DNA of 35,015 nt, taken from assembly GCA_013387205.1 (NCBI GenBank), contig WARV01000003.1, positions 1-35,015 on the forward strand, given 5' to 3'. Each line of letters starts with the position of its first letter. Position 1 is the stretch's first letter. Shown here one piece after another: positions 1,468-17,809 of this stretch. The notes beneath the pieces were generated by a model, which saw only the letters and a list, made by a program, of their open reading frames with translations, ran no database searches and was not told the DNA's origin. Made by a program: the position numbers and the translations under genes. This DNA comes from Patescibacteria group bacterium (GTDB taxonomy: Bacteria; Patescibacteriota; Doudnabacteria; UBA920).

Positions 1468-4092
1468 TTATTTAGCATACTGCTTAGCTTGATCCAACTT
1501 CACGCTTAACAGCTTGGACACACCGTCGTCGCCCATGGTTACGCCGTAAAGGATATTGGCCTGGGCCATGGTTTCGCGGTTATGGGTAATGGTCAAAAAT
1601 TGCGTTTGGTGGGATAGTCTGCCCAAAATCTGCCCGAACCTGATGGTGTTGGCATCATCAAGCGCGGCATCAACTTCGTCCAAAACCACAAACGGCGAAG
1701 GGAAACAAGTCAAAAGGCTGCACAACAAAGCAATGGAAGTCAAAGACCGCTCTCCCCCAGAAAGCGCCTGTATATTGGCCAGCTTTTTTCCGGGCGGCGT
1801 GGCTTTCATGTCCACGCCAGTGATATTACTAGCCCCTTTTTCATACTTTTGCATTATTTTTTCTTCTGGACGCAAATGCTCTTGTTCCATATCTTCCTGT
1901 CCGCCTTCTTCGGCCTCCTCCGCTTCTTCCTGTGCTTTATCTTCCGCCTTAACCAGGCTTAAGTAAGCCCGGCCCCCGTTGAACAAGACGCGAAAATACT
2001 CCTCGAATTTTTCATTTATCTTGTGGAAAGCCTCGCTGAACTTTACTTTAATATGACCGTCCAGCTCATCCATAATATTGCGCAAGTCAGCCATGCCGCG
2101 CTTTAAATCTTCCACCTGGGAGGATAAATTGGTAAAACGCGCTTCGGTTTCCTGGTATTCTTTCAAAGTCAGCTCGTCCATACCGCCAATGGTATCCAGC
2201 TGATTTTTCAATTTCAAGATTTTTTCTTCAAGGCCATCTGTGGCGCTTTCCACTTTTTTCTCTTTGATGCTGGACAGCACACCGTCGCCCAAAATTCTGG
2301 TAATTTCTTCCACCAAAACTTCCATTTGGGTATCGAACTTGGCTTTTTCTATATTGATTTGTGCTTCCTGATCCTTAGTCTTAGATAAGCTATCCTGGAT
2401 GTCGCGGTATTGCCCTTCTATTTCCCGAATCTGCTTTTGCCTTTTGTCTTCCTGGTCGTAAAACTGCTTTAATGAGCCTTCCATTTCCGAAACCTGCTTG
2501 GCTAACCCTTCCACTTCCTGCTTTATCCTTTGCTCTTCTTTAAGCAAATCTTGCCAGAATTCGTCATGCGATGAGCTTTGCGCTTTTTTTAATTCCAAAT
2601 CCCAGTGCAGTTTTTCTTGGGCTACAGCGGATAATTCCTTTTCCAAAAATTCCACTGACAGTTTGGACTTAGACAAACTCAGCTGCAAAGCATTAACCTG
2701 GCTGCTTAAATCTTCTTTTTGCCTTTGTAATTGTTCAAGCTGGGTCTTAAGGGCTGCCTGGCTGGATTGCGGGTCTATTAAAGCTTTTTGCGCCACGTCT
2801 TTGAATTTGGAAAAACCCTGCTTGACGCTTCCGGCAAGCCGCTTGGTTTCTTCAAGATCCGCGCTTTGCTGCACGCTAGCAAAAAAATCATCCAAAGTTT
2901 TTTCCAGCGCTTTCAGCTCCAGCTCCACCAGTTTCCAATCTATAGAAACCGGGCTGTTCAAATTTTGGTACAACTGGCTGAGCTGCTTGTTCGCTTCGTC
3001 CAAAGCCTTGAACTGTTTGACGAAATCCTGCTCAATTACTGTTTTCTCATTGTTTATCTGGGAAATTTTTTCCTTAATTTCGGCGATTTTTCTCTCCCTG
3101 GCATGGACTTCTACCTGGATGGTTTTAGCGTCGCCAAGGCTTGATGTCCTCTGGCTCTGCATTTTGCCGCGCACCAAGCTTAAATCTTCAAGCAGCTTGT
3201 TTTTCTGGTTTTGCAAGCGCGCCAAATGGTCCTGCACTTCTTTAAATTGCCCATTGCCCGTAACGCTTCCGGATTCAAGCTGTTCGGCCTGCGCCCGCTT
3301 GGCGCTTAGTTCGATTTCCATTGCGCGTTTTTTGGCGCCGGTTTCGCTTAGCCTTCCCAAAAACGCATCAATCGCTTCTTTCAGGCTCCAGTAAGTCTTG
3401 CCGAAAAATTCCCTCTGGTAAACTTTAAGCTCGGTTTCAATTTCCGCCCGGGCTTCCATTTTTTTCGCCTGGCGCCTCAAGCTTTTCAGCCTCGGTTCTA
3501 TTTCCGCAATTAAGTCCTCAGCGCGCATCAAATTATTAGCAGTCTGCTCCAGCCTGCGCAAAGTTTTTTCGCGCTTGATATAATAAGTTTTCACGCCACT
3601 GGCTTCATCAATTAAATTTTTCACTTCCGACGGGCCGGCCAATATCATCTGGTCAATTGTCCCCTGCCCGATAACCGTGTAGCGGGAAGTGCCGATATTG
3701 CTCTTTAACACCAAGTCCACAATGTCCATGAGCCTGGTCTTGTTGCCGTTTATCAGATATTCGCTTTCCCCGCTGCGGTCAACGCGTCGGCCAATACTGA
3801 CTTCTGCCGCATCCAGCGGAATTCTCCTGTCACGGTTATCGAAAGTGGCAATAACCTCGGCAAAGCCAAGGCGGGTCTTTTTATCGGATCCGGCAAAAAT
3901 CACGTCTTCGCTTTTTTTGCCGCGCATCAGCTTGGGCGACTGTTCTCCCAAAACCCACCTTAAAGAATCGGCCACATTGCTTTTGCCGCTGCCGTTCGGG
4001 CCGACCACGGCAATAACTCCTTGGGAAAATTCCAAAGTTGTTTTTTGGGCGAATGACTTAAACCCGTGGATCTCCAGTCTTTTTAAGTACAT
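1468..4092 (-). CDS. smc: Chromosome segregation SMC-like ATPase, short form
   Basis: SMC ATPase, 874 aa; bacterial SMC normally has about 1150-1190 residues. Visible motifs are Walker A GPNGSGKS (31-38), Q-loop Gln143, ABC signature LSGGERS (777-783), Walker B FVVLDEVDA (about 801-809) and the H-loop THN near residues 836-838. These are the two halves of an SMC head. Long Glu/Lys/Gln-rich coiled coils fill the middle. The glycine-rich hinge of about 150 residues is not recognisable; only a roughly 65-residue segment bounded by proline breaks (about 380-445) could form the turn. A very acidic insertion (about 716-745) lies before the signature motif. SMC dimers normally organise the nucleoid with ScpA and ScpB; neither is in the window. 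The ATG at 4092 gives the usual start MYLKRLEIHGFKSF. Confidence 0.92.
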   Translation of the reverse strand: MYLKRLEIHGFKSFAQKTTLEFSQGVIAVVGPNGSGKSNVADSLRWVLGEQSPKLMRGKKSEDVIFAGSDKKTRLGFAEVIATFDNRDRRIPLDAAEVSIGRRVDRSGESEYLINGNKTRLMDIVDLVLKSNIGTSRYTVIGQGTIDQMILAGPSEVKNLIDEASGVKTYYIKREKTLRRLEQTANNLMRAEDLIAEIEPRLKSLRRQAKKMEARAEIETELKVYQREFFGKTYWSLKEAIDAFLGRLSETGAKKRAMEIELSAKRAQAEQLESGSVTGNGQFKEVQDHLARLQNQKNKLLEDLSLVRGKMQSQRTSSLGDAKTIQVEVHARERKIAEIKEKISQINNEKTVIEQDFVKQFKALDEANKQLSQLYQNLNSPVSIDWKLVELELKALEKTLDDFFASVQQSADLEETKRLAGSVKQGFSKFKDVAQKALIDPQSSQAALKTQLEQLQRQKEDLSSQVNALQLSLSKSKLSVEFLEKELSAVAQEKLHWDLELKKAQSSSHDEFWQDLLKEEQRIKQEVEGLAKQVSEMEGSLKQFYDQEDKRQKQIREIEGQYRDIQDSLSKTKDQEAQINIEKAKFDTQMEVLVEEITRILGDGVLSSIKEKKVESATDGLEEKILKLKNQLDTIGGMDELTLKEYQETEARFTNLSSQVEDLKRGMADLRNIMDELDGHIKVKFSEAFHKINEKFEEYFRVLFNGGRAYLSLVKAEDKAQEEAEEAEEGGQEDMEQEHLRPEEKIMQKYEKGASNITGVDMKATPPGKKLANIQALSGGERSLTSIALLCSLLTCFPSPFVVLDEVDAALDDANTIRFGQILGRLSHQTQFLTITHNRETMAQANILYGVTMGDDGVSKLLSVKLDQAKQYAK

Positions 4093-8655: not shown

Positions 8656-8700
8656 AAAAATTGATAATTTTACACCTTATTATAACAGTATTTTATCCTA

Positions 8701-8729
8701 TTGACAAGTATCTATTTATGTGCTATAAT
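8701..8729 (+). promoter_or_regulatory. Perfect consensus sigma70 promoter of the accessory operon
   Basis: TTGACA (8701-8706) and TATAAT (8724-8729) are separated by exactly 17 nt. Initiation is expected near 8736, about 335 nt before the first gene of the plus-strand operon. It is the only promoter in the window that matches both hexamers exactly. Confidence 0.85.
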
Positions 8730-8735
8730 ATTAGG

Positions 8736-9058
8736 CTAATTTACCCAAGCACCTTTTTATAAAAAATCATAGGCTACTTAGGTAAATATTGCTAATAAAA
8801 AATTCCCGGCTGATTTTTCTTGAAGAAATGCAAAAGGTGCCTGGGATTAATATTTTGATTTTTGCTTGTGGTGGGCAAAACCTTGTAAACCCTAATTTTA
8901 CGCCCCCAAAACCATTTGGGGGTTTAAAATTCACCACTTGGTTTTACAAGGTTTTCCTCTCCGCAAGAAAGTTTATGCCGTTGTATGGCAGAACTTAAAG
9001 CGACAGAGGTCCCCTTGAAGGTTAACTTACCGCTTGGGAAGACACTTTAAAAATTTGC
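8736..9058 (+). promoter_or_regulatory. Structured 5' leader or small RNA of the accessory operon
   Basis: No convincing gene lies between the promoter and the start at 9071. The expected transcript contains GCACCTTTT (near 8747), which pairs with AAAAGGTGC (near 8831); inside that, AAAAATCA pairs with TGATTTTT. A second nested stem-loop spans about 8876-8957: AAAACCTTGTAAA pairs with TTTTACAAGGTTTT, and inside it ATTTTA..CCCCCAAA pairs with TTTGGGGG.TTAAAAT. A third weaker hairpin (TATGCC/GGCAGA) follows at about 8972-8995. The first domain ends in the T-rich ATATTTTGATTTTT, so it could be an attenuated leader or a separate small RNA. It matches no riboswitch family that I recognise. Confidence 0.55.
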
Positions 9059-9070
9059 AGGAGGCAACTA

Positions 9071-9796
9071 ATGATGAATTGGTTGCGAGGTATTGGTAAC
9101 TGGTTCCGGCAGATGTTTGCCCAAGATCCTGTCGCCAAAGCCGAAGCTAAAGCTATTAATGTTCGAGCCAAGGCCGAGGCGTACGCCACTCGCTTAGATG
9201 CCGAAAACCGGCACACCGAAGCCTTGGCGCAAGCCAAGGCCCGGAGCGGTTTTATGGTCTACATCTGGCGATGGCTGGACAAACTGCATGAGATTTCCAA
9301 ATCTCGAGCCGAAGCAAAAACTGCGCGAATCGAAGTAAAAGCAAAAGCTTTTGCCGAAAAGTACGAACGCAAAAAACTCGCCGACGCCCAAGCGGCTGCA
9401 ATTGTACAGGAAGCCAAAGCCGCCAAGTGGCACGAGATAGGCAAAGCCGCATCGCGAATTATCAGAAGGAGAAGACTGCGCGCGCGGTTTAGGCTGATCT
9501 GGAGGCGGACAAAGCGCAAGCTAAAATCCGGCTCAGGCTGGTTTAAGAATTTCTTTTCCGGACTCACCTGGAAAGTTTCTTTCCTGCTGACATCCGGATT
9601 CTTCGCCTTGACCGTTTACGGCGCTACCAGAAATCACCAGTGGCTTGTGGCTTTGGGACCTCTAGGCTTTACTTGGTCCTTAGCCGGCCGCGTGATATTC
9701 AAAAAAGGTTACTATGCGCGTTTAAGCCAGGCACTGCTGGTTATTCCCACAATTGTGTGGGTTACCAGTTTTGCGGTTATCTGGCTGAAAGGCTAA
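9071..9796 (+). CDS. Basic coiled-coil membrane protein, first gene of accessory operon
   Basis: I do not recognise this 241-aa protein. Residues about 18-60 and 75-125 are Ala/Lys/Glu-rich repeats (AKAEAKA, AEAKTARIEVKAKAFAEK) that should form long helices or coiled coils. They are followed by an intensely basic stretch (RIIRRRRLRARFRLIWRRTKRK, about 133-154). Three hydrophobic helices fill residues about 168-240. The Lys/Arg belt just before the membrane suggests an N-terminus in the cytoplasm, possibly contacting nucleic acid or phospholipid; this is inference. GGAGG lies 6-7 nt before the ATG pair at 9071/9074. The gene is followed after 1 nt by the cold-shock-domain gene, so the two are probably co-translated. 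Confidence 0.85.
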   Translation: MMNWLRGIGNWFRQMFAQDPVAKAEAKAINVRAKAEAYATRLDAENRHTEALAQAKARSGFMVYIWRWLDKLHEISKSRAEAKTARIEVKAKAFAEKYERKKLADAQAAAIVQEAKAAKWHEIGKAASRIIRRRRLRARFRLIWRRTKRKLKSGSGWFKNFFSGLTWKVSFLLTSGFFALTVYGATRNHQWLVALGPLGFTWSLAGRVIFKKGYYARLSQALLVIPTIVWVTSFAVIWLKG

Positions 9797-9797
9797 T

Positions 9798-10724
9798 ATG
9801 ACAGGACGAGTAAAAAACCTTAAAGCCGACCGGAAATTCGGGTTTATCGAACAGGGCCAACCAGGACTTCCTGACGTCTTCTTTTTGTTTGGAGATTATC
9901 CGCAAGGACAATTTCCCGCAATTGGAGACGAGGTTAGTTTTGATACTGTCCAAGAACCGGGGAAAAAAGGGCCGAAAGCCCAAAACATCACCATTACCAC
10001 CAAAGCCCAGACTACTGCTTCTACTGCAACACGGCAAGGAGCATCGACTGCGGCTAGTGCCAGACCTTCTCAAGACAAACAGCACTCCGCCAAACCTATC
10101 GTTCGTTCTCCTGAAAACGCGATCATGGCCGATATCACCTTCAAATTCCAAGAGCCGATACTGCTCATAACAGTCAAGGTAAATTGGGGTGGGGTCGATA
10201 TTGTCCTGTTGCTGGACGGAGATGAAAGACATAGGGCAATGACGAATTCCGACGGTATCGCGGAGTATTTGTGCGAGGTGCCTGCGGACAAAAACTTCTA
10301 CCTAGTGGAAGTTTTCGTTGAGGATTTAAAAAATCCTTTTAGCGCAAACTGGTTCCGCCATAATTTGGAAATAAAAAAAGGCGGGACTACACCTACAGCT
10401 CCATCACCGACCATGACCCCAACCGAACTGACGATCAAGCAAGGCAGTCGAATCGTTGACAACAAGTTTATGGTCACGTTTATGGCCAAAGCCGACGGCA
10501 AGCCATGCAAGACCAAAGTTCGAATTGTTGTCAGCGAGTATTTCACAAAGCTGATAAACCTTATCGATTCTTCGGAATCCGCCACATCTCCTGTCGTATG
10601 GGAGACTAACGACCAAGGAGAACTGCCAATTAGAATTTTGACCAGGGAATGCCACCACAAAATCAAAGGCATCCTGATTAGCGACGCAACCAAAACCGCC
10701 GAATGCAAAGTATACGATGCTTAA
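9798..10724 (+). CDS. Cold-shock domain fused to probable beta-sandwich domains
   Basis: 308 aa. Residues 1-65 form a cold-shock-type OB fold: GRVKNLKADRKFGFIEQ contains the RNP1-like motif KFGFI (13-17) and DVFFLF (26-31) matches RNP2, ending in a GPKAQNITI-like strand. A Thr/Ala/Ser-rich linker (about 66-105) leads to two beta-rich regions (about 110-195 and 210-308) with strand patterns like carboxypeptidase-regulatory or Ig-like folds (NSDGIAEYLCEVPADKNFYLVEVFV; NKFMVTFMAKADGKPCKTKVRIVV). Cold-shock domains bind single-stranded RNA or DNA, and they are rarely joined to such modules. No signal peptide is present, so the protein should be cytoplasmic. It starts 1 nt after the previous stop. 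The fold calls beyond residue 65 are inference. Confidence 0.85.
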   Translation: MTGRVKNLKADRKFGFIEQGQPGLPDVFFLFGDYPQGQFPAIGDEVSFDTVQEPGKKGPKAQNITITTKAQTTASTATRQGASTAASARPSQDKQHSAKPIVRSPENAIMADITFKFQEPILLITVKVNWGGVDIVLLLDGDERHRAMTNSDGIAEYLCEVPADKNFYLVEVFVEDLKNPFSANWFRHNLEIKKGGTTPTAPSPTMTPTELTIKQGSRIVDNKFMVTFMAKADGKPCKTKVRIVVSEYFTKLINLIDSSESATSPVVWETNDQGELPIRILTRECHHKIKGILISDATKTAECKVYDA

Positions 10725-10740
10725 GACTTAAGGAGAAATT

Positions 10741-11394
10741 ATGGACGTTCCGGAAACAGTACGGGATGCTGCCGCGGGAGCGGCCGAAGGTCTTCGCAAG
10801 GGAGCCAAAAGAGGCGCGCTCCATGTGGTTGAGGAAATCGCCGAACTGGCGGCTTTTACGACCGGGGGTGCAGCCTACTCCTTGTGGCAAAAACACCAGG
10901 AACTCAAAAAGACCAAGGAACACGTGAATGCGCTGCATGCCGAAGGCAAGCACGAAGAAGCAGCCAACGCTTTGGAAATCGCGCTGTGCAAATTCACGCT
11001 TTCCGACGAAGCAGCGGCTTTCAAAGTCTTGCCCCGCGCGGTCAAGCATTTTAACCAGCCTGGTGATACTGCAAAAGCCGACCAACTGCTAGATACGTTC
11101 GTCAAATTAGACGAAACCGGCCTGCACCGCTTCCGCGAAATTTTACTGCGGATCGGCGACGAGGACGCGCAGTTTGTCAAACTAGTGGAATGGGGCGAAG
11201 CCACTCCCGAACAGCGGGAGAAAATGATCAAGATCGCCCAAGTGGAACTACTGCCAGAACAACAGACCGGCCACGTATTTGCAACCGAATTACGCCGCGT
11301 GGCTATCGGCCAGCGCGACAAATCCAATGCGCATGTGGAAGAAATTAAAAACCGTATTCGCACCAAGCGAATGCGGCCTGCGGCCCGGCCCTAG
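10741..11394 (+). CDS. Helical soluble protein of unknown function, third gene of accessory operon
   Basis: 217 aa, not recognised. It is almost entirely helical by composition. An amphipathic Ala/Gly-rich N-terminus (about 1-45) is followed by HVNALHAEGKHEEAANALEIALCKF (about 61-85), whose spacing resembles a TPR-like helical hairpin, then further helical pairs and a basic end (RIRTKRMRPAARP). No transmembrane segment is certain; AAFTTGGAAYSLW (about 37-49) is only weakly hydrophobic. A strong Shine-Dalgarno (AAGGAG) precedes the ATG at 10741, 16 bp after the previous gene. The first 60 bases contain 38 G or C, far above the core genes nearby, which supports a different origin. A scaffold role is a guess from the TPR-like look. 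Confidence 0.82.
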   Translation: MDVPETVRDAAAGAAEGLRKGAKRGALHVVEEIAELAAFTTGGAAYSLWQKHQELKKTKEHVNALHAEGKHEEAANALEIALCKFTLSDEAAAFKVLPRAVKHFNQPGDTAKADQLLDTFVKLDETGLHRFREILLRIGDEDAQFVKLVEWGEATPEQREKMIKIAQVELLPEQQTGHVFATELRRVAIGQRDKSNAHVEEIKNRIRTKRMRPAARP

Positions 11395-11459
11395 CGGCGG
11401 GTTGTAACTATAATCAGAAACACTGAACGAAAGAATACAGACGAAAGGAAAGAAAAGAA

Positions 11460-12647
11460 ATGACAGCAGCAATTCGCAACTTCTTCCAAATGGCGGAAGC
11501 CGTCTTGGACATCCTCCGGCATACGGTCTTCGACCCCGTGCGGGCGCGGACCGAGTTGTTCTTGGAAGACTTGGACAACTGGCTAAATAGACACAACTTG
11601 ACACTGCCGCAGTTAACTGGCTACATTTTTGCCACCATGGGCGCTGCCATAGTTCTCGCGATGGTTTTTTTCATTGTCGGCGCCGGCATTGGCAGCTGGT
11701 TCGACACTGAAACCGGATACGCCGTAGCCAGGGGGATCATCCTCTTTGGCGCGATAATCGGCTTTCTGGGATTCTTGCCGCTCCTAATTATCTTTAGCGT
11801 CGCCCACAGTTTGTTCAACCTACTTGTCGAGGGCGGCGAAGCGGCAATGAAAATCCTGGACTCCGAGGAACACAACCAAATCCCGGAGAGGATCCGCCAA
11901 CAACTCGAAACGATGAGAAATCAGCGCAACTTGACCAACCTCCTGCGTGCGTTATACGCAGGTTACGCCGCTGCCGTAATAGCGATGTTATGGCAACCCA
12001 ACTTCCACGGCTTGTATCTTATGGCTGTTGGAGTGTTTGCGGTTTCCGGCATTGTCTGCCTGCGCCTGATTAACCGCGTAAGGGGACACGGGATCGTCAA
12101 GTTAATGCTGGCTGGCACGTATGGATTCATGGGCGGCGCAATCGTCTATGTAATCCTAAGTCATATCGCCAAACCAATGTTTTTTGCGGGCTGGCCGGAT
12201 ATGATCTCCAACCAGACCGCAAACCGGTTTGTCATAATCGGTACCGCGCTGGCTGCAGCCATCACTTTCCTGGCCCAGCTCCGCATGCGGCTTGGCGGAG
12301 AAGAGGATGAAATCAGGAAAGGCGATGTGCCTGTTAATTCATATAAAGTCAAGGTTTCAGGAATCGATGCAACTACAGGCAAGCCAACAGCTTACCAACT
12401 GGATGTTCCGGCTAACAACTGGAAAAAATACGGCGTTGTTGCTGCGATAATCGCCGCGTTATCAATACTCGGCCTGGTTATCTTCAAAACAACGCCATCG
12501 GCAGCCTCAGGCGGTTTTTTGAACAATGTGTCATCAAGCGAGATTGCAGGAATTATCATGCTAACTGCGCTAGCTGGCATATTTGTTTTGGGTTTCATAT
12601 TTTCATCGCCGCGCGACAAGAGCGCGTCCGGCCATTCAGGCCACTAG
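11460..12647 (+). CDS. Eight-helix membrane protein of unknown function, fourth gene of accessory operon
   Basis: 395 aa, not recognised. It has an N-terminal amphipathic cytoplasmic segment (about 1-48), then hydrophobic helices at about 50-74, 88-116, 160-180, 184-205, 213-236 and 250-273. A soluble segment (about 278-322) includes the beta-rich VNSYKVKVSGIDATTGKPTAYQLDV, and two more helices follow (about 325-345 and 362-385) with a His/Ser-rich tail. No transport, protease or glycosyltransferase motif stands out. It lies 65 bp downstream of the preceding gene, with AAAGGAAAG before the ATG. As the most hydrophobic member of the operon it probably forms the membrane core of whatever complex these genes encode. 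A pore or assembly-platform role is possible but unproven. Confidence 0.85.
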   Translation: MTAAIRNFFQMAEAVLDILRHTVFDPVRARTELFLEDLDNWLNRHNLTLPQLTGYIFATMGAAIVLAMVFFIVGAGIGSWFDTETGYAVARGIILFGAIIGFLGFLPLLIIFSVAHSLFNLLVEGGEAAMKILDSEEHNQIPERIRQQLETMRNQRNLTNLLRALYAGYAAAVIAMLWQPNFHGLYLMAVGVFAVSGIVCLRLINRVRGHGIVKLMLAGTYGFMGGAIVYVILSHIAKPMFFAGWPDMISNQTANRFVIIGTALAAAITFLAQLRMRLGGEEDEIRKGDVPVNSYKVKVSGIDATTGKPTAYQLDVPANNWKKYGVVAAIIAALSILGLVIFKTTPSAASGGFLNNVSSSEIAGIIMLTALAGIFVLGFIFSSPRDKSASGHSGH

Positions 12648-12658
12648 GAGAAAATTAA

Positions 12659-13354
12659 ATGAGCACGACTGCGCCTACCAGTACTACTCCAGCAACCACA
12701 ACAACCGCCGGCACACAACAGCAGGCGGCAACCAGAAAAGCAATCAACACTAGACAGCTTGTCTGGTGCGCGTTACTGTTTTTCCTGCTTGCGTCTGTTC
12801 TCTGGAAAGTAGTAGTCATTGACAGGTTCATGCAGCTAGTACCATCGCGAAAGGCGGAGGATATCAAGTTCTCCGAAGTCGCCAGTGGGCTGCGGGAAAA
12901 CTACGAAAACAACACCAATGACGCCAAACAGCGGGTAAAGCAAGACCCTAACCGGGGCCTAGCCAAGTTCGCTGTAGAGACATCGGTCTACCGCGACCAG
13001 CAAAACGCGCTGCAGGACATTAGGAACGGGAAAATTCCGAACGAACTGTTCTGCCACGACGAGCGGCAAAGGGACGGCAATACCCTGACCGTCCATATTC
13101 CGAAAGCCTGCGACCCAGGGGACGGATTTCACATCGTCAAATCGCAAACACCGGTATTGGTAAAAATTTCGGTAACCACCAAAGACGGCGTGCCGATTAC
13201 CGGCGAACCAAAACTGAAACTTCGCAAAGACGGAGGATTTAGCTACGCCAGACACATCAAAGACAATATTTGGGAGTGCCGTGGCTACGTCCAATTCTTG
13301 ATCCAATACAAAACGGACCAAACCATAACCGTAGTCGACAAAGGGCCAGTATAA
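12659..13354 (+). CDS. Single-pass Thr-rich membrane protein with extracytoplasmic domain, fifth gene
   Basis: 231 aa, not recognised. The first 25 residues are nearly all Thr, Ala, Pro and Gln, followed by RKAINTRQ and one transmembrane helix (about 33-54). A charged helical region (about 62-125) leads to a C-terminal beta-rich domain (about 150-231) containing TPVLVKISVTTKDGVPITG, similar in pattern to bacterial Ig-like repeats. Two Cys (about 133 and 149) flank DERQRDGNTLTVHIPKA and could form a disulfide if the domain is outside. The ATG at 12659 has AGGAG 9 nt upstream and begins 11 bp after the previous stop. The Thr-rich N-terminus on the short side of a lone helix is unusual. Confidence 0.83.
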   Translation: MSTTAPTSTTPATTTTAGTQQQAATRKAINTRQLVWCALLFFLLASVLWKVVVIDRFMQLVPSRKAEDIKFSEVASGLRENYENNTNDAKQRVKQDPNRGLAKFAVETSVYRDQQNALQDIRNGKIPNELFCHDERQRDGNTLTVHIPKACDPGDGFHIVKSQTPVLVKISVTTKDGVPITGEPKLKLRKDGGFSYARHIKDNIWECRGYVQFLIQYKTDQTITVVDKGPV

Positions 13355-13373
13355 AAACAAAAGGAGGAAAGTT

Positions 13374-13439
13374 ATGTATTCACCCAACGCGAGGGCGCCT
13401 AGTAAGGACTTTCGCTGCAGGGCTCCGGACGACGAGTGA
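13374..13439 (+). CDS. 21-residue peptide ending the accessory operon
   Basis: A short frame begins at ATG 13374, preceded by AAAGGAGGAAAG, the best Shine-Dalgarno in the operon, 19 nt after the preceding stop. It encodes 21 residues (MYSPNARAPSKDF..., ending CRAPDDE) and stops at TGA 13437-13439, 26 bp before the terminator stem. The peptide is hydrophilic with one Cys. The strong ribosome-binding site just ahead of an ATG is the main evidence that it is translated. It could be a secreted or regulatory peptide, or the remnant of a larger gene. Confidence 0.5.
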   Translation: MYSPNARAPSKDFRCRAPDDE

Positions 13440-13465
13440 GAGGTTTTACCCCTCCACTCGCCGTC

Positions 13466-13505
13466 AATTTAAAAACCCCAACCAAATGGTTGGGGTTTTT
13501 AAATT
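13466..13505. terminator. Bidirectional terminator between accessory operon and pilin cluster
   Basis: A 19-bp stem (13466-13484 with 13487-13505) has core CCCCAACCA/TGGTTGGGG, flanked by A5 on the left and T5 on the right. It therefore terminates both the plus-strand operon ending at 13439 and the minus-strand gene ending at 13515. Confidence 0.92.
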
Positions 13506-13514
13506 TTAAATTTA

Positions 13515-13973
13515 CTAGCCGGTTTTTCCGTTTGCTACCAGATTTACCACAACGTTTATCAGAGCATAAGCCATTATCACTACAACCACGCCAATTGTCG
13601 CGTTGAGCAAAGTTTTTCTCCCCTTCTCCGCCTGTTCGTCATTACCTCCCGCAGTTATATACTGGTATCCACCAATCACCAGCCAGACAACCGCTAAAGC
13701 GCCGGCCAAAGTCAGCATAATTTTTAGCACTTTTGTTATAAGTTCAAAAATCGTGCCGGTATTGGCAATTGAATCTTTGGAAAACTGGGAATTTAATACA
13801 CACAATCCGTTTACGTAAGTAAAACCGGTTCCACAGCTTCCATTTTGATTCACAGTTCCAGTGGCGTTTTGGGCAAAAACCGGATTAAAAAAGTATCCGC
13901 TGAAAGTAAATAACAACAAAGCAGCCAACACTGCACCAAAAATCATTTTTATTTTTAACAAATTCAGGCTCAT
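13515..13973 (-). CDS. T4SS-pilin-like two-helix protein, paralog 6 (152 aa)
   Basis: It has an N-terminal signal sequence (about 10-34, cleavage near VFA-Q) and a short Cys-containing extracytoplasmic segment (GSCGTGFTYVNGLC). The shared module follows: a hydrophobic helix ending GGYQYITAGGN, the polar loop DEQAEKGRKTLLNA, and a second hydrophobic helix (IGVVVVIMAYALINVVVNLV). This module resembles the VirB2/TrbC-like pilins (Pfam-type T4SS pilin) abundant in Patescibacteria. The two Cys before the module could form a disulfide. It is the last gene of a six-paralog minus-strand cluster and ends at the bidirectional terminator. Whether it polymerises into a pilus or stays in the membrane cannot be told. 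Confidence 0.85.
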   Translation of the reverse strand: MSLNLLKIKMIFGAVLAALLLFTFSGYFFNPVFAQNATGTVNQNGSCGTGFTYVNGLCVLNSQFSKDSIANTGTIFELITKVLKIMLTLAGALAVVWLVIGGYQYITAGGNDEQAEKGRKTLLNATIGVVVVIMAYALINVVVNLVANGKTG

Positions 13974-13988
13974 AGTATTATTGAAAAA

Positions 13989-14381
13989 TTATGCCCGGTT
14001 AAAAGCAACCAAATTAACAACAACGTTAATTATCACATAAGATAAGATTATTATCACAATTCCGATTATAGCGTTTACCAAAGTCGTTTTGCCTTTTTCC
14101 GCCTGTTCCGCATTGCCGGCAGAGGTTAAATACTGGAATCCGCCGAAAATTACGAATAATACGGCAATGGCTCCGGCTATCAACAACAACATCCTAATGA
14201 TATTAGTAATCAATCCTGCAGAACCGGTCAAGGTAGTGGAGCCGGCGATCCCAAAAGAAGGAAAAGGAGATTTTATACTCATCATCCCTTGGTTAATTTC
14301 ACTTTGGGCATGGGCAAAAAAAGGAAACACGGCCAACATAACCGCAATTAAGGATGGTAGATATAATAATATTTTTTTCAT
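13989..14381 (-). CDS. T4SS-pilin-like two-helix protein, paralog 5 (130 aa)
   Basis: The most compact member of the cluster. It has a signal peptide (about 1-25, AHA-Q), a 30-residue mature N-terminus, and the shared module: helix to GGFQYLTSAGN, loop AEQAEKGKTTLVNA, and helix IIGIVIIILSYVIINVVVNLV. Its length and layout are close to classical VirB2-type pilins, so of the six it is the best candidate for a major subunit. It lies 15 bp upstream of paralog 6 and is probably co-transcribed with it. The ATG at 14381 lacks a clear Shine-Dalgarno. Confidence 0.87.
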   Translation of the reverse strand: MKKILLYLPSLIAVMLAVFPFFAHAQSEINQGMMSIKSPFPSFGIAGSTTLTGSAGLITNIIRMLLLIAGAIAVLFVIFGGFQYLTSAGNAEQAEKGKTTLVNAIIGIVIIILSYVIINVVVNLVAFNRA

Positions 14382-14438
14382 TTTTATTTAATTTAATTTC
14401 CAAACTTTAAAACAAAAAATTTTCATCCTAAAGACTGG

Positions 14439-14463
14439 CCCCGTCCCGTTTATCGGGACGGGG
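14439..14463 (-). terminator. Possible terminator after pilin-like paralog 4
   Basis: A 10-bp stem CCCCGTCCCG/CGGGACGGGG (14439-14448 with 14454-14463) with a 5-nt loop lies 12 bp after the stop at 14475. The T-run on the minus strand begins only some 16 nt later, so it may be weak. Confidence 0.5.
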
Positions 14464-14474
14464 ACAAATATTTT

Positions 14475-14867
14475 TTATGCTCCGCTTGTGCCGCTCCTGC
14501 CGACAAAATTGGATACAACGTTCACTATCACGTAAGACAAAATAATAATCACAATACCAATAATGGCATTAATGGCGGTATTTTTGCCTTTTTCCGCGGT
14601 TTCTTCATTGCCAGCGGAAGTGATATACCAGAATCCGCCGATAATCAAGAACAACACGGCAATACCGAAGGCAATGGCCAACATCCAGTTAATTACAGTA
14701 GTGATTAAACCATTAACACTGGTTTCATCCCTTCTTAAGCCTGGCGTGTTGCCGATGTTGGGCTGTAATTGTGCGTAAACCTGCACAACAGGCATAAGCA
14801 TTAAGGCAAAAACTGCCACAACCTGCGCCACTTTCAGCCAATTTATCTTTTTTAAAGTTTGTTTCAA
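14475..14867 (-). CDS. T4SS-pilin-like two-helix protein, paralog 4
   Basis: It shows the shared module (helix to GGFWYITSAGN, loop EETAEKGKNTAINA, helix IIGIVIIILSYVIVNVVSNFV) behind a signal peptide ending near VYA-Q. The frame is open upstream to an ATG at 14939, but the first 24 codons lie in a TGTCATTCTGG...CAGGATGACA inverted repeat. I therefore prefer TTG at about 14865-14867, which has GAGGGGG 8-9 nt upstream and gives a normal signal peptide beginning KQTLKKINWLKVAQ. GTG at about 14876 is another option, but it overlaps that Shine-Dalgarno. The product is about 130 aa, the same size as paralog 5. Confidence 0.83.
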   Translation of the reverse strand: MKQTLKKINWLKVAQVVAVFALMLMPVVQVYAQLQPNIGNTPGLRRDETSVNGLITTVINWMLAIAFGIAVLFLIIGGFWYITSAGNEETAEKGKNTAINAIIGIVIIILSYVIVNVVSNFVGRSGTSGA

Positions 14868-15011
14868 GATGTTCACCCCCTCTCGCATGTCATCCTGAGC
14901 TCTGGCGCCTAAATTAGGAACCAAGGTCCAGAATGACATAATTTATGTCTATTAATATGATACACTAAAACTGCTATTTTTTAAACAAGGATTTTTTGTA
15001 TGGGTTCAAAC

Positions 15012-16250
15012 TTACTGCTGGTTTAATTTGTAACCGCAAAGGAAAACATTTACCCTGTTGGAGTCATAATCCGTTACCGGTATTTTACTTTCAACTGCCG
15101 TTGATGCACCGCTGGAATTTAAACTACTGGCCGGATATGAATGTTCTACGGAACTATCGCTGTTATTTTTATACAACTGGATTTTTACCTGAGGCGAAGA
15201 TTCTTTTGCACATAATGTAGTTACGCTTTGCTTGCTTGCGCTGACAAAAACAGAAAAGTTTCCATCTGAAGTCATTAAGCTAAATGAGGAATTACTAATA
15301 GCTTGTTGAAGCAATGCGCTATCTTGTTCTCCTCTTGGATTGACAGATGCCGCTGTAACCGTAATCTGACCCCTTGTTAATTCCGTATTATTAACCCCAA
15401 CAACTACGGACAATGTTCCGGCACTGTCAAATCCGCTAATGGGAACAGTGGCAACGAACTGGGAATCAATATTACTCTTTGAAAATACTGCCTGGTTTTG
15501 CGGAACTCCGTTTATTTCCACTTTAAAAGGACATTGGGTTAAGGCCACTCCGTCACAAAGCTGCATGGCTGCTTCTACAGTTGACTGGCTGGTGGCATTC
15601 ACCCTGGCTTCCACATTAAAATCTTGGCCTGCCACAACCGTGTCAGGAATATATACCTTGAAAGCGGCTTTGGCATCGGCATCGCTATATTTATTCGTCG
15701 TTTGGGTTGTCGTATTGCTTGTTGTCTTCGTGCTGCTACCGCCCGAATTATTTTCTGCTGGCTTGGCAATGGTATTAACCACTATGGCGATTATGGCAGA
15801 AGACATTATTATTACCACAAGTCCAATTATGGAATTGGTTAAAACCTTCCTGCCTTTCTCTGCTTGTTCGTCATTGCCCGCTGCAGTTATATACAAATAT
15901 CCGCCAAAGACAATGAACAATACCGCAACTCCGCCGGCAAACATTAAACCCATATTAACACCTCGGAGCATTAACTGCTGGGCGCTGCAAATAACCGGAA
16001 GTTTGTCGACAAAATTATAGCCTGCTTGTATTTCGCTTTCGCGATTCTTGGCAATTTCCATATTCGGTGCGCTGAAGATGGAGTAAAAACTTTTACAGCG
16101 ATTGCACTCTTTTTCACTTACCCCTTGTGGCGGATTTGAACAATTAAGGTCGCTAACAGTCTGAGCAGAAGCAAAAAAGGGAATTGCCGAAAACAACAAG
16201 GCGAATGCCAAAAAAAATATTTTTAAATTTTGTTTTTTAAAAAAGGACAT
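15012..16250 (-). CDS. Pilin-like module with C-terminal extracellular Ig-like region, paralog 3 (412 aa)
   Basis: It has a signal peptide (about 1-29, ASA-Q) and a Cys-rich segment (CSNPP, CNRC, VICSA). The two-helix module follows at about 98-165 (GGYLYITAAGN, DEQAEKGRKVLTNS, IIGLVVIIMSSAIIAIVVN). A Ser/Thr/Asn linker (about 170-190) leads to roughly 220 residues of beta-rich sequence, probably two Ig-like domains. In the neighbouring 519-aa protein the large region precedes the module, so the order is reversed here. The start ATG overlaps the stop of that gene (TAATG), evidence of translational coupling. A role as a tip or minor surface component of a pilus-like structure is inference. Confidence 0.85.
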   Translation of the reverse strand: MSFFKKQNLKIFFLAFALLFSAIPFFASAQTVSDLNCSNPPQGVSEKECNRCKSFYSIFSAPNMEIAKNRESEIQAGYNFVDKLPVICSAQQLMLRGVNMGLMFAGGVAVLFIVFGGYLYITAAGNDEQAEKGRKVLTNSIIGLVVIIMSSAIIAIVVNTIAKPAENNSGGSSTKTTSNTTTQTTNKYSDADAKAAFKVYIPDTVVAGQDFNVEARVNATSQSTVEAAMQLCDGVALTQCPFKVEINGVPQNQAVFSKSNIDSQFVATVPISGFDSAGTLSVVVGVNNTELTRGQITVTAASVNPRGEQDSALLQQAISNSSFSLMTSDGNFSVFVSASKQSVTTLCAKESSPQVKIQLYKNNSDSSVEHSYPASSLNSSGASTAVESKIPVTDYDSNRVNVFLCGYKLNQQ

Positions 16251-17809
16251 TATTGTGTGATTTTCGGAGCTTCTTGTATATCTGCCCCGATTAAGTTTTG
16301 AACAATGGCAATTATACTAAATGATAATGCCGCCACAATTACGCCAAGAATTGCCCAGGTTATTGTTTTTTTCGCCTGACCGTAAGCTTCTTCGTTCCCT
16401 TGCGCCATTACCATCCTAAACCCTCCAACAATTATAAAGATAACCCCCCATATGGCAATAATCCCTAAGAATCCCCTGGCAAGCCACAAGAACATGGTAG
16501 TTAAATCCCCGGTCGGCAAAGGATTGTACAAGCAGTCTTTGGAATTCGAATCCTTCCCATCGCATTTTGACCCCGTTACCCCCGCGCCAGGCGTGGTTGC
16601 ACCAGTTCCAGGACCACCGCTTCCTATTGTAACCTTAAAAGAAGTAGTTGGTAAATCTATTTGGTTATTATCTTTATCTGTCACATCAAAAGACAGCACC
16701 GTAGCTCCTTTAACATCAAATCCTTGATCAGCAGAAACCGTAAAAGTTCTAGTATAATTCGGGGCGCTTAATGTATAATCTTTATCTCCTACAGAAACTG
16801 TAAAATCTGCCCCTTGGGGAAAGTTTTTTCCTGTAATTATTATCGTATCACCCACACTATATCCATTTGTTTTTATTGGAGTAATTTCAACATAAGGAGA
16901 TGACTGGGAAGCTAAACTTACTTGGATATTCCCCGTGCCTCTTGCATAAACATTATAAGGAGATGCGGCATCTTGAATGTCCACCCGGATTTCATTGGAA
17001 CCATTTGTAAAAGGACCATTGGCATTCACGGTCACGGTTTGATAGGTCTGTTTATTTTTTAGATTACTCTTGTAAATTCCGTTATTGTTACTTCCATAAT
17101 TATTCCCCACCTGTTTGCCATTAATATAAGTTAACATGGCAACTGTTGTTGGTAAACTGCTTAAATCGCTGTCCTTAACAGTAGCATAAACTTTAAAACT
17201 ATCCCCTTGTGATACAAAATTTTTATCCACGTCAACAGCAACGTCGTACAAATTATCATTGCCCGAACCTCCTGTTGACCCCGATACGTTTAATGTTTTC
17301 ACCCAACTAACGGTATTCACCTCTTCAACACCACCAACACCATAGTTTTCTGGGACTACAGACATGGCATACTCAAAAACTTTTTTGTCTGACAAACTAT
17401 CCCAATCAGAAAATAGGCCCAAATTGTAAGTCCATTTAGCATCCTGAAAGCCATCTATATTAACTGTATTTGTATTCGCAAAACTAACTTTTTGGTCTAT
17501 TAAATATCCACCAATCGTACCACCGGTATAATTTCCATTAACTCTCTTTGGTACAAAAAACTTAAACCTCATATCATTAACTTTTGAACAAACCGTTCCC
17601 AAACCATCTCTTCTAACAGTAGCTTGGAATTTTATGATGGTTGTCCTGGTGACACTATCCGGCTGAGCCCACATTTTATCAATATAATAAGTACAATCGG
17701 CTGCTTTTGTATTTACTGCTCCAAACCCAAAAAACTCGCTAAGGAGGAAGATTAAGAGGAGCGAGGTTCTTAAAAGCAGGAGGCCTTTATTGAACAATTT
17801 ATTTGGCAT
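16250..17809 (-). CDS. Large surface protein with C-terminal pilin-like module, paralog 2 (519 aa)
   Basis: It has a signal peptide (about 1-36, TKA-A) and then about 380 extracellular residues rich in Thr, Asn, Gly and Val. These include an Ig-like stretch (about 185-300) and GDTIIITGKNFPQGADFTVSVG (about 320-342), an IPT/TIG-like pattern. A Gly/Thr-rich linker (GSGGPGTGATTPGAG) precedes a Cys pair (SKCDGKDSNSKDC) and the C-terminal two-helix module (IFIIVGGFRMVMAQGNEEAYGQAKKTITWAILGVIVAAL). The module is more divergent than in the small paralogs. The stop overlaps the start of paralog 3, and the start lies 18 bp after paralog 1. It is probably a membrane-anchored adhesin-like partner of the pilins. 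Confidence 0.85.
   Translation of the reverse strand: MPNKLFNKGLLLLRTSLLLIFLLSEFFGFGAVNTKAADCTYYIDKMWAQPDSVTRTTIIKFQATVRRDGLGTVCSKVNDMRFKFFVPKRVNGNYTGGTIGGYLIDQKVSFANTNTVNIDGFQDAKWTYNLGLFSDWDSLSDKKVFEYAMSVVPENYGVGGVEEVNTVSWVKTLNVSGSTGGSGNDNLYDVAVDVDKNFVSQGDSFKVYATVKDSDLSSLPTTVAMLTYINGKQVGNNYGSNNNGIYKSNLKNKQTYQTVTVNANGPFTNGSNEIRVDIQDAASPYNVYARGTGNIQVSLASQSSPYVEITPIKTNGYSVGDTIIITGKNFPQGADFTVSVGDKDYTLSAPNYTRTFTVSADQGFDVKGATVLSFDVTDKDNNQIDLPTTSFKVTIGSGGPGTGATTPGAGVTGSKCDGKDSNSKDCLYNPLPTGDLTTMFLWLARGFLGIIAIWGVIFIIVGGFRMVMAQGNEEAYGQAKKTITWAILGVIVAALSFSIIAIVQNLIGADIQEAPKITQ

Follow-up and report, generated by a model that had tools for sequence, protein, structure and literature searches.

Organization of the locus

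The stretch of DNA under study (hereafter the window, 35,015 nucleotides in full) represents contig C18 of a genome of 1.30 Mb and 98% completeness from a Patescibacteria group bacterium of the class Doudnabacteria, and carries a compact plus-strand operon encoding five proteins of 241, 308, 217, 395 and 231 amino acids (P0001 to P0005), with gaps of 1, 16, 65 and 11 bp between their open reading frames (ORFs). The operon is preceded by a folded leader and followed by a trailer hairpin and a terminator (Table 1); the last four genes are referred to as genes A to D. This architecture is well supported and agrees in most parts with what had been proposed earlier from the letters of the window alone (the original prediction). 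The promoter indeed matches the consensus perfectly, the terminator is a bidirectional hairpin, and the leader (8735-9075) is structured, folding at -99.7 kcal/mol (z -3.9) with 0 of 100 shuffles as good. Likewise, the Shine-Dalgarno (SD) sequences described as strong give a mean anti-SD duplex energy of -7.9 kcal/mol for the operon genes (21-aa ORF included) versus -0.7 kcal/mol for 17 flanking minus-strand genes. Of the six genes originally listed, however, only the five tightly spaced ORFs stand; the 21-aa ORF is probably not a gene because it has no counterpart in relatives and overlaps the trailer hairpin.

The operon promoter is equally perfect (12/12) in G016, G014, G019 and G001. Its -35 element overlaps that of a divergent tRNA-Leu(UAG) promoter (8679-8729, TTGACAA), an arrangement also found in G001, G016 and G014, and due to the shared element the two promoters may be mutually exclusive.

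Table 1 Features of the operon and its borders, with positions in the window
Feature	Position	Strand	Remarks
Divergent tRNA-Leu promoter, TTGTCA-17-TATAAT	8679..8707	-	-35 overlaps operon -35
Operon promoter, TTGACA-17-TATAAT	8701..8729	+	12/12 match, TG before -10
Leader hairpin (RNA model R1)	8865..8967	+	104 bits; 5' arm 8865-8889, inner GC hairpin 8903-8922, 3' arm 8943-8967
Loop CACCAC	8932..8937	+	complement of GUGGUG in the 5' arm, with which it may pair alternatively
Degenerate boxA-like site CACTTTAAAA	9043..9052	+	7/9, p 0.86; position of relatives' boxA
P0001, basic coiled-coil, C-terminal transmembrane segment	9071..9796	+	241 aa; one strong C-terminal hydrophobic segment
P0002 (gene A), N-terminal cold-shock domain and tandem Ig/FnIII-like domains	9798..10724	+	308 aa; PF00313, model, Foldseek
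P0003 (gene B), alpha-helical, lineage-specific	10741..11394	+	217 aa; profile homologues in class, model
P0004 (gene C), polytopic membrane protein, short Gly/His tail	11460..12647	+	395 aa; G018 homologue, ~7 transmembrane segments
P0005 (gene D), Thr-rich N-terminus, one transmembrane segment, C-terminal domain	12659..13354	+	231 aa; hydrophobic segment count
21-aa ORF, excellent SD	13374..13439	+	no counterpart in any relative
Trailer hairpin	13428..13465	+	z -5.8; terminator follows
Bidirectional terminator-like hairpin, 18 pairs	13466..13505		shared with convergent pilin gene

Conservation within the class

Operons of the same type occur in about 20 of the 49 Doudnabacteria genomes sampled, and they do so at one fixed chromosomal spot, namely the interval that has FtsH (often together with tRNA-Leu) at one end and an array of type IV secretion pilin genes at the other. 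Comparison of the FtsH surroundings established these two anchors in several families of the class. With P0004 as query, a homologue was retrieved from G018 (26% identity, E 1.3e-19), whose contig holds four matching genes in conserved order; leader hairpin and trailer motif are present there as well. With the leader as query at the DNA level, more genomes of the family were retrieved, each with an operon of the same type downstream, and an RNA model of the leader added a ninth genome, G001. Gene order A-B-C-D is kept in the relatives, including loci of other families of the order. Homology between families is given by profile matches for gene A (in G042, E 1.2e-20) and gene B (in other families, 8.6e-21 and 4.3e-18) as well as by a gene C common to G001 and G041 (2e-15). 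For several of the more distant loci (L070, L072, L074, L076, L081, L082 and L083), the assignment relies on location, promoter, domain type and topology rather than on a significant match for each of the genes. Among 380 genomes of the phylum, gene B gave no convincing match outside Doudnabacteria; candidates in other classes were rejected, as they consisted of short matches with E-values of 1e-4 or worse. Proteins of the relatives are only about 14-30% identical to those of the window, and the leader RNA is far better conserved than these very divergent proteins. As far as tested by such comparisons, the locus appears to be class-specific and conserved at a fixed site.

The leader RNA

The leader hairpin of nine genomes has a near-invariant 25-nt 5' arm starting with CUUGUGGUG; after a variable loop, a 3' arm pairs back with it. 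Across the nine distinct sequences, standard pairs fill 97% of the cells of the stem, compared with 42-60% if the partner strand is slid; four pairs have changed on both sides, and the covariation score surpasses all 500 shuffles. With covariation and structure both beyond controls, the leader is a conserved structured RNA that has previously not been described. Only tRNAs reached the gathering score of an Rfam family, with sub-threshold matches resembling chance, and the leader motif found no match in viral contigs. Additional matches of the leader model (G001:C4, G009:C3 and G040:C1) were taken as chance since they are weak and have no operon downstream, and two further ones, from Desulfobacterales and Bacteroidales, are no better than chance.

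Conservation of the 5' arm exceeds what pairing requires. Part of it, GUGGUG, is complementary to a CACCAC motif which is present in the loop of all nine leaders; the minimal loop of G001 is in fact little more than this motif. For transcripts ending after CACCAC, the predicted minimum fold includes a GUGGUG:CACCAC helix in the window, G006, G013 and G016 (in G016 it arises with later copies of the motif), whereas the full transcript is predicted to adopt the long hairpin instead. Based on these folding energies, the two pairings are a candidate co-transcriptional switch. Within the loop, most leaders additionally contain a GC hairpin with a T-rich stretch downstream of it.

The arm at 8865-8889 and its counterparts can also be read as a tiny ORF, xLVVGKTx followed by a stop codon, with the stop kept in nine genomes and no visible SD. 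A leader peptide (M)LVVGKT[LWSP] was nevertheless rejected, because the conserved stop is accompanied neither by synonymous changes nor by an SD and the stem explains the pattern.

At the other end of the operon, the trailer hairpin lies 5' of the terminator in seven genomes (the window and six relatives). Its helix is individually stable, and covariation in the alignment is only suggestive. In the trailers of L026, L027 and L004, an upstream strand TCGTCATCAAGG can pair with the 5' arm CCTTGATGACGA of the trailer hairpin, so that two mutually exclusive helices precede the terminator.

boxA sites and a possible role of Nus factors

Besides the hairpin, most leaders of the class contain a site resembling the boxA element of ribosomal RNA (rRNA) operons, where NusB and S10 bind. 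Scored as NTCTTTRACA with a threshold of at least 8/9, boxA is found in 15 of 22 class leaders compared with 1.6 expected from shuffles, and its density in leaders amounts to 2.48/kb versus 0.29/kb in the rest of the same loci (8.6-fold). Since the pattern had been spotted in the same leaders before it was scored, independent support comes from its identity to the boxA of rrn operons: the genome's own rrn leader carries CAGTTCTTTAACAGC. NusB is encoded in the genome as well (E 2.3e-37). Leaders of other families lack the long hairpin, yet share boxA. In most relatives of family f1, boxA is located 26-59 nt from the start codon, which is close enough to affect translation. Due to the degenerate site of the window, the boxA claim for this genome is made from homologous position only.

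Compared with an rRNA leader (boxB/boxA, NusB-S10), the operons share a consensus-like promoter and a hairpin followed by boxA (TCTTTRACA) ahead of the body, but their leader drives protein genes, read-through is putative and no leader-trailer pairing was found; a leader-trailer helix as in rRNA operons was rejected as its pairing is no better than that of shuffles. Outside rRNA, boxA is known to act in two ways, by preventing termination or by repression (PMC5725501). In suhB, too, it is located in the 5' untranslated region of a protein gene (PMC5725501); suhB, however, encodes a Nus factor and is repressed, while the operon genes are unrelated to it.

The encoded proteins

The cold-shock/beta-sandwich fusion originally proposed for gene A is borne out. 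Residues 1-65 of P0002 match the cold-shock domain PF00313 (5.2e-9; 36.3 bits versus a curated cut-off of 27), as in the CspA/CspB cold-shock proteins, from which P0002 differs in that the domain is fused to immunoglobulin (Ig)-like domains within a membrane-protein operon. The remainder models as tandem beta-sandwiches of the Ig/fibronectin type III (FnIII) kind with Ig and FnIII matches by Foldseek; model confidence is low overall (53.7), with a block at residues 210-308 reaching a predicted local distance difference test score of 72-90. Unlike other bacterial Ig-like/FnIII domains, this region has no Pfam match and no apparent signal peptide, and weak Big_1 matches occur in two relatives. 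A cold-shock head is also present in gene A of G030 and G035 (significant at E 6.4e-5 and 1.8e-5, yet below the Pfam curated cut-off) and marginally in G023 and G040; in most close relatives, it is replaced by an RG-rich tail.

P0003 had been called similar to tetratricopeptide repeat proteins, which is not established: Pfam TPR_14 scores below cut-off (E 0.055), and the all-alpha model has no fold match in the PDB. Three membrane proteins had been claimed in addition. P0001 does have one strong hydrophobic segment, at its C-terminus, and P0005 has one hydrophobic segment, whereas P0004 has about seven rather than clearly the eight that had been counted. Gene C ends in a Gly/His tail (e.g., GGHNDHH) in several genomes. 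The family set of no anti-phage defence system was complete in PADLOC; a single profile, CSD_V, matched owing to the cold-shock domain.

Base composition

The difference in base composition noted originally is real: GC content is 0.513 in the operon versus 0.436 in core genes, GC content at third codon positions (GC3) is 0.572 versus 0.482, and the codon adaptation index (CAI) is 0.541 versus 0.597 for other genes (p 0.001). In all 13 relatives measured, the GC content of the operon exceeds that of its flanks, by 7 points on average, and hence composition is no evidence for recent transfer. At 9071-13354, GC3 reaches the level of ribosomal genes, but the operon genes are less adapted to ribosomal codon usage than the genome's other genes are, and ribosomal-style codon adaptation was therefore rejected as an explanation of the high GC3.

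Proposed function and alternatives

The simplest reading of the proteins is a membrane complex with a nucleic-acid-binding arm. This had already been suggested in the original prediction and is strengthened by the conserved order A-B-C-D and the recurring cold-shock or RG-rich N-termini of gene A. With a somewhat better than even chance, the locus encodes such a lineage-specific complex and expresses it through an RNA-controlled, probably Nus-type leader. In the rapidly diverging envelope complex, bitopic D and polytopic C would sit in the membrane and B would serve as helical adaptor, while A would join its tandem Ig-like domains to a head that binds nucleic acid, formed by the cold-shock domain here and by the RG-rich tail in most of the close relatives. 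Transcription from the consensus promoter would proceed through the folded leader, where GUGGUG probably pairs first with the loop CACCAC until the long hairpin forms; in most relatives, boxA (NusB/S10 site) comes next. Through Nus-type antitermination or suhB-like repression, the leader may confer responsiveness on RNA polymerase or on the first ribosome binding site, and the complex would be made strongly but conditionally. We infer that the proteins form one complex and bind nucleic acid, that boxA and switch are functional and that the window genome still uses Nus factors.

Several observations weigh against this reading. In at least nine genomes, FtsH is directly followed by pilin-like genes and the operon is absent. 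P0001 has no homologue among the fetched loci of relatives and is unique to this genome there, and gene D is linked between families by position and topology only. The GUGGUG:CACCAC helix is favoured in truncated transcripts of some leaders only, the window's own boxA scores just 7/9 (p 0.86), and the low CAI of 0.541 speaks against very high protein output. Because about nine genomes do without the operon, it is not essential to the class; its patchy presence is compatible with an ancient gain, loss or exchange within the class.

Alternatively, the leader may be an attenuator, a riboswitch-like or a protein-sensing element with no Nus role, and gene A (cold-shock or RG-rich) may bind its own leader and thereby regulate the operon. 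The RNA-binding modules of gene A, a 5' arm conserved beyond pairing need, the alternative helix and the GC hairpin with T-rich stretch in most loops all fit this explanation, which we regard as a tentative one of appreciable probability; on the other hand, the leader of G019 is present without gene A, boxA enrichment extends to families whose leaders have no hairpin, and Rfam offers no match. The operon genes could also belong to the adjacent type IV secretion/pilus system as accessory components. This is suggested by the direct convergence of the operon on T4SS_pilin (PF18895) genes in the window and on small pilin-like membrane genes in relatives, but seems unlikely, as no product matches VirB/Trb families in Pfam or NCBIfam and the pilin array is retained in many genomes that lack the operon. 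Finally, horizontal acquisition or exchange of the operon, as a genomic island at a hotspot beside FtsH and tRNA-Leu, would account for higher GC, divergent codon usage, the adjoining tRNA, patchy presence and very divergent proteins, but is improbable given that no integrase or phage genes were seen, that tblastn found no match of gene C in phages or of gene A in plasmids and the leader motif none in viral contigs, that GC excess (13/13) and gene order are shared, and that the leader is conserved, in four genomes even with the overlapping divergent promoter.

The notion of an accessory, probably horizontally acquired operon is therefore not upheld in the form originally given: with the same place occupied across several families and the GC excess shared, a recently acquired mobile island is not supported by the comparisons. 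As findings against itself, the original prediction had named matches to separate known families with no conserved neighbourhood, or codon usage uniform with the core genes. The outcome is mixed: the neighbourhood is in fact conserved, codon usage is not uniform with that of the core genes, and apart from the cold-shock domain the products gave no strong matches to separate known families.

As for the membrane complex with its RNA-controlled leader, a stronger version is conceivable, although quite doubtful at present: the leader would be a new class of RNA switch that is coupled to an rRNA-type boxA and whose invariant GUGGUG arm alternates between the long hairpin and pairing with the CACCAC loop; a non-ribosomal membrane operon would be read by Nus-modified polymerase, and its products would form a new kind of complex that is anchored in the membrane and captures nucleic acid, in a lineage that is uncultured and probably dependent on a host. 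The RNA of the OLE ribonucleoprotein is long and highly conserved, and its partner families are known. Here as there, a structured RNA is encoded together with membrane and RNA-binding proteins, but the operon leader is without an Rfam match.

What appears new is an undescribed leader RNA at a class-specific locus, along with an rRNA-type boxA in most relatives. Patescibacteria have small genomes with many unexplained genes, and the locus, restricted to one class as far as tested, is a concrete candidate for an apparatus that is specific to this lineage and acts at the surface or handles nucleic acids. Its fast-evolving proteins stand under a barely changing RNA leader. To the few operons known to be controlled by boxA, the locus would contribute a conserved non-ribosomal case from a lineage distant from Proteobacteria, and the leader supplies an RNA family fit for deposition and for in vitro work that does not depend on culturing the organism.

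Neighbouring genes

At least five minus-strand pilin-like genes (13515-17809) converge on the operon, two of them clear members of T4SS_pilin PF18895 and the others matching the Mbov_0395 pilin-like family. On the opposite side, an SMC/RecN-like ATPase (PF02463, 6.2e-64) is encoded on the minus strand at 1468-4092. In genomes of family f4, a secreted protein of similar layout is encoded 3' of gene D (L066 7491-8450, L065 7883-8875, L071 4805-5803, L083 6960-8045, L082 5572-6789 and L074 4541-5506); its N-terminal part resembles by eye the secretin/TonB short domain, with FecR_C (E 0.014) in one protein as the only match. Immediately 5' of gene A in G030 (L075 2892-7650), genes for a PP2C, a VWA protein, a zinc-ribbon protein and a Ser/Thr kinase are found, and the VWA protein and the kinase are likewise present in G040 (L070 5138-8991). 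With such neighbours in these two genomes, phospho-regulation of the complex is possible.

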